A stretch of 64,000 nucleotides of DNA from a bacterium (GTDB lineage: Bacteria > Bdellovibrionota_G > JALEGL01), in contig JALEGL010000009.1 of NCBI GenBank assembly GCA_022763185.1, positions 1-64,000 of the forward strand, written 5' to 3'. The stretch's first letter is position 1. Each line of letters begins with the position of its first letter. Below are positions 15,018 through 51,902 of the stretch, one piece after another. The notes beneath the pieces are model-generated. The model saw nothing but the letters and a program-made list of their open reading frames with translations, was not told the DNA's origin and searched no databases. A program made the translations under genes and the position numbers.

Positions 15018-15265
15018 AAAAAGTAAAACCCCATGGTTCTCAATATCTTGAAGCACATGGGGTTTTTAAGTGTAGCCGCCAAACTCACGGTGTGAATGCG
15101 GTATTTTTATCTTCCTGCTAACAGGTGGGTTTCGTATACTTGCTTCTGGTTACTTGATCACGTCAAGTCTTACGCTCCACAAATAGGAACAAATCCCGAT
15201 AAAAAAAAGTTAATGAGACAAAAATACGTTAGTGATTCATCACCCATGTTTCAGCCGCACTACAT
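15018..15265 (-). ncRNA. Candidate structured non-coding RNA gene (6S-like length, identity unproven)
   Basis: A gap of 560 bp (14768-15327) carries no credible gene. On the minus strand a TTGACT box (15298-15293) and AT-rich -10 region (TATATA) precede a potential RNA of about 245 nt. It has UGUAG near 15262 pairable with CUACA near 15071, perfect small hairpins ACTTGA-CGTGA-TCAAGT, CCTG-TTAG-CAGG, TCAC-ACC-GTGA and GTGA-TGAA-TCAC, and a terminator at 15025-15066. The ~190 nt between the closing strands is the size of 6S RNA, and the end GGCGGCUACA is reminiscent of it, but I cannot confirm the family. A riboswitch or leader of the downstream BI-1 gene is an alternative. Confidence 0.38.
15021..15068. 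terminator. Bidirectional terminator closing the candidate ncRNA
   Basis: AAAACCCCATG (15025-15035) pairs with CATGGGGTTTT (15056-15066). On the minus strand it is followed by TTTTACTTTTTTT, on the plus strand by five T. A further perfect 9-bp hairpin AGTGACTGT/ACAGTCACT lies at about 14971-15001, and a TATAAT at 14855-14860 could start a plus-strand RNA ending here. Confidence 0.7.
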
Positions 15266-32110: not shown

Positions 32111-32158
32111 AAGGCAACCATAAAATATCAAACGAGCTCGCGAAGCGAGTTCGAGTCT
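32111..32158 (+). repeat. 48-bp direct repeat with T-arm-like motif, copy A
   Basis: It shares 46 of 48 positions with 32325-32371. The 3' part contains GCGAGTTCGAGTCTC, identical over 15 bases to the T-arm of the adjacent tRNA-Asp but in inverted orientation to that gene. CTCGC-GAA-GCGAG forms a small hairpin. Confidence 0.75.
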
Positions 32159-32324
32159 CCCGCTTCGCTCTTTATTAAAAGGGAAAATCGCTTTTTAGGT
32201 ATTCTTGTGAGGAACGAACTAGAATACTTTATGCAAAGCCCCCTCACCAACAAAAAACGTCGTTTTTGTTGGCTCACCCTTTGCGAAAAACTACCTCAAT
32301 CAAGCGGGGTACGCCATGTTGCCA

Positions 32325-32371
32325 AAGGCAACATAAAATATCAAACGAGCTCGCCAAGCGAGTTCGAGTCT
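32325..32371 (+). repeat. 48-bp direct repeat with T-arm-like motif, copy B
   Basis: Second copy, with one base deleted and one changed relative to copy A, 214 bp downstream and 60 bp from the tRNA-Asp 3' end. Confidence 0.75.
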
Positions 32372-40630: not shown

Positions 40631-40653
40631 CAATCCTTTTATTACTTATTTAA

Positions 40654-40736
40654 GGGGGCCCTTCCCCTTCTTGACCCATAAACGCAGCTTTGGACCAATT
40701 TAAGGCTTTACTCGTGAAGATCAAGGTTTAGTCTTG
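40654..40736 (-). promoter_or_regulatory. Structured clpX leader, same architecture as the nusA leader
   Basis: On the minus strand, 5' to 3': hairpin CAAG-ACTAAAC-CTTG (40736-40722), 23 bases, stem TTGGTCC/GGGTCAA (40698-40692 with 40677-40671) around a 13-base loop containing GCGT, 3 bases, then a G/C hairpin GGGG/CCCC (40667-40654) just before the ribosome site. The spacing matches the nusA leader (51713-51630) almost base for base, while stem sequences differ compensatorily. Confidence 0.55.
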
Positions 40737-40757
40737 CAATCAGCCAGCATAAAGAAT

Positions 40758-40773
40758 GCCGCACTTATGCGGC
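40758..40773 (-). promoter_or_regulatory. GC hairpin at the 5' side of the clpX leader
   Basis: GCCGCA-CTTA-TGCGGC, perfect 6-bp stem. On the minus strand it is followed by ATTCTTTAT, a poor U-tract, so it may be a weak attenuator or part of the leader fold. The nusA leader also has a GC hairpin upstream of its shared block. Confidence 0.35.
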
Positions 40774-40920
40774 CTTCACACCCTGATACGAACCAGTATA
40801 AAACCTCTTCTCCCAGATAACCTAGCTTAAGCTAAGCTATTAATCTTACTATACTTTCTAACCTTTATTATAACGGCATTGGCCGATCGCACAAAGGTAT
40901 TTTTTAAATTTACCTGCTCT

Positions 40921-40953
40921 GGTACCCAAAGGCACCGGCTACCTTTGGGTACC
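40921..40953. repeat. REP-like palindrome, diverged copy
   Basis: Perfect 12-bp arms GGTACCCAAAGG / CCTTTGGGTACC with a 9-base loop, behind clpP. On the minus strand the core AAAGGTAGCCGGTGCCTTT resembles AAAGGTAGGCCGTACCTTT of the copies at 854 and 47584. No U-tract follows. Confidence 0.55.
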
Positions 40954-51629: not shown

Positions 51630-51713
51630 GGGAAAATCCCTTTCCCTCTTGCCCAAGACGCGTTCATGGACAAGCTATAAACGTATACGTGTGAAGAACA
51701 AGGCCTAGCCTTG
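51630..51713 (-). promoter_or_regulatory. Structured nusA leader, same architecture as the clpX leader
   Basis: Minus strand 5' to 3': hairpin CAAGG-CTAGG-CCTTG (51713-51699), 24 bases with ACGTATACGT, stem CTTGTCC/GGGCAAG (51674-51668 with 51654-51648, one G-U pair) around a 13-base loop containing GCGT, 1 base, then GGGAAA/TTTCCC (51646-51630), followed by the ribosome site GAGGAAA. The clpX leader has the same elements at the same spacing with different base pairs. Confidence 0.55.
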
Positions 51714-51829
51714 CGATAATGGTTTAATGCAGTCTAAGTTACACGCTTGGCAACAGTTGCATAGTCAAAGAACACAGATTGGTTGTCTTCAACTAAAAAC
51801 ACTAAACCCTTACCCCACGTACTTGGGAT

Positions 51830-51853
51830 AAAAAAAATAGGCCTCACGGCCCA
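51830..51853 (-). terminator. Possible attenuator upstream of nusA
   Basis: On the minus strand GGGCC-GTGA-GGCC is followed by TATTTTTTTTA. The stem is short (4-5 bp) but all G-C with a strong U-run. A TTGCAT-N18-TATAAG promoter lies only about 15-40 bp upstream, so if real it would act in the nusA leader itself or end a very short RNA. Confidence 0.35.
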
Positions 51854-51902
51854 TTCGTTTACCCTTATAAACGTTTGTTGGGTTAAAATGCAAGGGAAAT
51901 CA

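Follow-up and report, generated by a model that had tools for sequence, protein, structure and literature searches.

Leaders of clpX and nusA as probable copies of a palindromic repeat dispersed in one bacterial genome

The leaders preceding clpX and nusA in the window, the whole 64,000-nucleotide stretch analysed here, are very probably two old, diverged copies of a non-autonomous palindromic repeat transcribed as hairpins in untranslated RNA. It is likewise highly probable that the two leaders share their ancestry as repeat copies, in which case no dedicated shared regulator is needed. A previous sequence-only reading placed these leaders at 40654-40736 and 51630-51713, respectively, and these positions are correct, on the minus strand; curated family models confirmed the downstream proteins as ClpX and NusA. 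The resemblance noticed between the two leaders reflects genuine homology, but it is confined neither to these segments nor to these two genes. Three hairpins had been proposed for each leader. The second and third, termed hairpins C and D, are real in both, whereas the first (CAAG..CTTG) folds in the nusA leader but is missing from the minimum-energy structure of the clpX leader.

Modular anatomy and genomic distribution of the repeat

In the direction of the element, the repeat consists of module A (GGAGAGG...GACC), a G-run with TGA, an optional module B, hairpin C and hairpin D (GGGG..CCCC). Module B (GCCGC..GCGGCATAAGTTGTACTAGATCATCGCAAGGC..GCCTTGCTCTTCACAAGTACAGCTTTATGAA) is a long hairpin enclosing an inner hairpin, and hairpin C has a variable stem with the inner sequence AAAAC-GAC-GTTTT. 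In addition, the palindromic module E, composed of GCTTTGCATAA, a variable stem and TAAAAAGC, can nest inside hairpin D, as seen in the copies at mdh and at 32237-32276 of the window. Copies often end just before the ribosome-binding site of the downstream gene. Two covariance models were used, R1 for modules B and C together and R2 for hairpin C alone. The window contains three copies, one of which, near a tRNA gene, had not been noticed before:

40650..40814 (approximate), minus strand: whole repeat copy in the clpP-clpX gap (clpX leader), with a module A remnant, module B and hairpins C and D; homologous to the mdh, glyA, ahpC and other copies; R1 score 73.5 bits
40793-40814, minus strand: 5' module A remnant of the clpX copy
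40699..40773, minus strand: module B of the clpX copy, which holds the first hairpin of the sequence-only reading; stems decayed, judging from differences at stem versus unpaired positions
40671..40698, minus strand: hairpin C of the clpX copy, UUGGUCC/GGGUCAA, with a variable stem and the conserved inner core of the family, AAAACGACGTTTT; R2 match at 40662-40701, 43.9 bits, and family covariation
40654..40668, minus strand: hairpin D of the clpX copy, GGGG..CCCC, a short distance upstream of the ribosome-binding site, seen in the sequence and at the same position in the mdh, glyA, cpaB, ndk and pnp copies
51630..51742, minus strand: diverged repeat copy of the nusA leader, modules B, C and D; R1 match at 51641-51742, 71.7 bits
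51699..51713, minus strand: CAAGGC..GCCTTG, the inner module B hairpin of the nusA copy, from sequence and fold
51648..51674, minus strand: hairpin C of the nusA copy, CUUGUCC/GGGCAAG; R2 match at 51640-51677, 30.8 bits
51630..51646, minus strand: hairpin D of the nusA copy, from sequence and fold
32159..32320 (approximate ends), minus strand: third copy, near a tRNA gene, ending in ...GAGCGAAGCGGG; R2 match at 32237-32276, 45.4 bits
about 32113-32158 and 32326-32371: direct duplication of ~53 bp flanking the third copy, from sequence comparison
32192..32239, minus strand: module E of the third copy, made up of GCTTTGCATAA, a variable stem and TAAAAA, nested in hairpin D

The genome to which the window belongs spans 2.25 Mb in 15 contigs, with an assembly that is ~97% complete. 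A search of this genome with the clpX leader as DNA query matched two other loci, and a BLAST search by sequence alone with the better-preserved mdh copy revealed more than 10 dispersed copies, that of clpX included. With R1, the clpX and nusA leaders score 73.5 and 71.7 bits, respectively, compared to 98-109 bits for five other copies of the same genome, all these copies being part of the model. The R2 model found 39 copies in the genome at E<=0.1, giving a family of ~40 copies per genome. Copies precede mdh, ahpC, glyA, ndk, pnp, rplY, rpmA, cpaB, clpX and nusA. Others lie 3' of ftsZ and etfA, next to tRNAs, in antisense to genes or, in inverted orientation, between gspH and gspI. Those with module B stand before mdh, ahpC, glyA, clpX, nusA and one more gene (L055); others of this type lie close to a tRNA, in antisense at the end of a gene, or between gspH and gspI in the inverted sense. 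The genes that carry the repeat have no common functional theme. Such dispersal over numerous sites, unrelated to each other and for the most part intergenic, is the mark of a small interspersed palindromic, or MITE-like, repeat. A regulator shared by ClpX and NusA, as once suggested, finds no support in a family with ~39 central hairpins spread over the genome in both orientations and at 5', 3', antisense and tRNA-adjacent positions.

Compared to dinucleotide shuffles, neither leader is unusually stable alone (z = -0.52 for clpX and -1.79 for nusA), and on the plus strand the nusA copy is as stable relative to its own shuffles (z = -2.09) as on the minus strand. As both leaders are unremarkable when folded alone, the case is carried by their resemblance rather than by their stability. 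Separate from the repeat, a terminator-like hairpin with a T run (GAATGGGCCGTGAGGCCTATTTTTTTT) lies at 51830-51856 on the minus strand, which is the nusA strand, ~230 bases upstream of the nusA start. It is just preceded by a promoter-like stretch, and possibly represents a nusA attenuator.

Stem variation, orientation and flanking duplications

Hairpin C occurs with ~20 different stem sequences, and 436 of the 471 stem positions in 40 copies are Watson-Crick paired. In the model-based alignment, paired cells amount to 89.8%, compared to 68.9% after shuffling, with 100 two-sided changes against 33 in shuffles. The covariation score is 0.52 compared to 0.18 for shuffled alignments, and drops to 0.15-0.17 once the partner is slid by one column. 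Although this alignment is biased towards structure, BLAST, which takes no account of pairing, had already picked up many of the strongest copies. Since the stems vary and yet nearly all of them pair, some process maintains the pairing. The earlier observation of different bases with the same pairing thus holds for hairpin C, with strong covariation across the whole repeat family. Among the non-Watson-Crick pairs in the stem, G-U exceeds A-C (16:5, p = 0.03), which hints weakly at selection on the RNA of this strand.

By contrast, module B of the clpX copy decays without compensation. Compared to better-preserved copies, it has changed at an equal rate in stems (10 of 38 positions) and outside them (6 of 24 unpaired positions), and one of eight changed pairs still pairs; in the nusA copy, five of nine do. 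We also considered a switch based on competition between the 5' G-run and hairpin D for the C-run of the latter, which was rejected as the run lengths are not significantly correlated (rho 0.19, p = 0.31). The 5' flank and the D loop match over 3-4 bases in a way that follows the subfamily, with CGC/GCG in 16 copies, CAC/GTG in one and CACG/CGTG in about five, as counted by eye. This match was noticed after the fact and is kept only as a lead, as it may reflect shared descent.

Element and downstream gene point the same way in 33 of the 39 copies (p = 1e-5, optimistic like all our orientation p-values, since copies in tandem lack independence and genes were called automatically). Of the 39 copies, 31 lie on the GC-skew-positive strand, a property partly confounded with gene direction. 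Even where the skew is opposite, the majority of copies keep the direction of the local gene, and transcription direction therefore seems to be the better predictor.

Direct duplications of neighbouring sequence, 43-103 bp in length, flank nine of 36 copies on both sides, compared to six of 1500 random positions (p = 3e-12). Examples are 55 bp at the atpC end (L056), 72 bp at a gene start (L051) and 53 bp around the window copy at 32159-32320. Five duplicated cases resemble target duplications, and a further one (L059) is larger and diverged. No remnant of a second repeat is left at L051, L052, L056 (the atpC end), L070 and L090, whereas at etfA, glyA and L057 the tandemly duplicated unit includes the repeat, complete or shortened. 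Clear terminal inverted repeats were not found in the duplication-bounded inserts. The clpX and nusA copies have no flanking duplication, as expected if both are older, and they are most likely old, diverged members of the family. At the 3' end of etfA (L129, 17600-18200), the last ~100 bp of the gene are tandemly duplicated together with the repeat, and the second copy bears an extra module E.

Proposed origin and competing explanations

We propose that a lineage-specific, non-autonomous, modular interspersed palindromic repeat has spread within this lineage, and that its copies, mostly in sense orientation, would form transcribed hairpins in untranslated RNA, either 5' or intercistronic. The hairpins would probably have local, generic effects there on the stability, processing or translation of the mRNA, in the manner of ERIC, BOX and Correia elements and not as a sensor shared by ClpX and NusA. 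By analogy with these elements, the repeat may have a local effect on mRNA stability or processing (PMC2229807, PMC3049150). The data show the family itself, its copy number, its variable but paired stems, the orientation bias, the long duplications at its flanks and its absence from the relatives searched, and from there we infer past mobility, transcription and an effect on mRNA. The sense bias and the maintained hairpin C, however, exceed the needs of a purely selfish, neutral repeat, and the argument for mobility draws on the duplications that flank one copy in four, and some of these resemble tandem duplications that include the repeat.

The same sense bias, together with the strong covariation of hairpin C, would suit a cis-regulatory regulon amplified in this lineage, in which a three-hairpin leader senses one signal and controls many growth genes (clpX, nusA, mdh, ahpC, glyA, ndk, pnp and ribosomal proteins). 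In many cases the element ends near the ribosome-binding site, six of the nine module-B copies precede genes, and the excess of G-U over A-C hints at pairing in RNA rather than DNA. We nevertheless regard such a regulon as quite improbable, given the copies after ftsZ and etfA, antisense to genes, adjacent to tRNAs and inverted between gspH and gspI. The flanks vary by subfamily, and no invariant unpaired binding core was seen across the copies. Moreover, the element is absent from four other genomes of the phylum, and module B decays at clpX.

The duplications could alternatively be tandem duplications caused by replication slippage at hairpins, with one hairpin copy lost afterwards and spread by recombination instead of transposition. 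The duplicated units at etfA, glyA and L057 that contain the repeat agree with this explanation, which we consider rather unlikely, as the five loci with no trace of a second repeat do not, and dispersal to ~40 loci requires some transfer step in any case. A mobilisation of REP type, in which Y1 (IS200/IS605-like) transposases move palindromes via single-stranded hairpins, appears highly improbable. Three different Y1_Tnp (RAYT-like) genes are present in the genome (L040, L041 and L042), an extra T is frequent in the hairpin C stem, and most copies follow the GC-skew-positive strand; however, each Y1 gene is flanked by its own type of palindrome, different from the clpX/nusA repeat, for which reason these genes were rejected as mobilisers. 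Furthermore, the stems vary freely here whereas REPs are conserved in sequence, no GTAG foot was seen in the repeat, and known IS200/IS605 members generate no larger target duplications (PMC2817692), yet long ones occur at nine of 36 copies. A DDE mobiliser of the IS1634 type and a reverse transcriptase were also discarded, since the DDE_1 family and the reverse transcriptase families are absent from the genome; among the Y1, DDE_1 and reverse transcriptase families looked for, no transposase with ends matching the repeat was found. It is improbable, though conceivable, that the repeat is a mobile element dependent on RNA structure for its mobility or maintenance, with free stems that keep their pairing, insertion coupled to transcription direction, duplications of 40-100 bp and no known transposase or reverse transcriptase family involved.

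Relatives, databases and known repeat families

Comparison within the phylum covered five genomes, that of the window included, which is the only one of its family. Neither R1 nor R2 matched in the four others, nor at their clpX and nusA loci, which speaks against the proposed shared cis-regulatory RNA. In one relative (G002) the clpP-clpX gap measures only ~20 bp, and in another (G004) it is short and devoid of the element. Absence from such distant relatives shows lineage restriction and gives no insertion date. Two of the outcomes named beforehand as adverse to a conserved leader RNA did appear, namely relatives that lack homologues and a first-hairpin module of clpX (module B) that changes without compensation, but hairpin C does covary.

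The sequence-only reading could name no known RNA family, in agreement with our comparison to Rfam, in which no family matched the leaders. At the gathering score this search returned only 6S RNA and tRNAs, and at E<=10 only chance-level matches. The exact module-B pattern gave 10 single matches in unrelated taxa across the GTDB genome collection, about the number expected by chance, and R1 gave none of them a convincing score (best E-value 0.7). Viral contigs, plasmids and phages yielded no match to the repeat.

Several known families share part of this architecture. ERIC, or RU-1, of enterobacteria is a small intergenic palindromic repeat co-transcribed with its neighbours, with an orientation-dependent effect on mRNA stability (PMC2229807). 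The present repeat is also small, intergenic and palindromic, but forms several consecutive hairpins, one with a freely varying stem, compared to the single long stem-loop of the ERIC transcript. We know of no sequence relation between ERIC and the clpX/nusA repeat. The Yersinia palindromic sequence (YPAL, RU-2) has inverted repeats that are internal and not terminal, lacks TA termini and makes a target duplication of variable length, 3-26 bp (PMC2229807). Similar traits seem to recur here, except that the duplications are 43-103 bp long and the modular architecture differs. BOX elements of Streptococcus pneumoniae are modular and dispersed, with predicted RNA stem-loops, and are transcribed as 5' or 3' extensions of operons (PMC3049150); our repeat resembles them in modularity, dispersal and predicted stem-loops, but belongs to another lineage and has a hairpin C stem that varies freely between copies. 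Long, variable direct repeats of 8-514 bp arise on insertion of IS1549 and IS1634 by an unexplained mechanism (PMC2266710). The flanking repeats here are similarly long and variable, but those elements encode a transposase in a family of 1.5-2 kb members, with no DDE_1 match in this genome. REP/RAYT systems likewise consist of extragenic palindromes, and the genome holds Y1 transposases and a Y1-type palindrome beside clpX (40921-40953), but the palindromes of the present family have no conserved stem and are not those that border the Y1 genes. None of the repeat families compared combines free stem variation under kept pairing with a sense bias, nested modules and long duplications at the flanks, as this one does. 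Altogether, a resemblance between two RNA leaders, compensatory pairing included, can stem from a dispersed repeat, and the family offers a useful test case of the ways in which small repeats spread and come to serve as leaders of housekeeping genes.

The palindrome at 40921-40953, between clpP and clpX, is perfect with 12-bp arms (GGTACCCAAAGGCACCGGCTACCTTTGGGTACC) and of the same kind as those flanking the Y1 (RAYT-like) transposase gene on contig C4 (L042). A further duplicated pair resembling inverted repeats (AATACATAGTGTGTCCCACGATT) is found at L135 (13600-14000), unrelated to the clpX/nusA family, and the genome seems rich in palindromic repeats. The window also carries a 6S RNA gene on the minus strand at 15072-15260 (Rfam RF00013, 69.9 bits).
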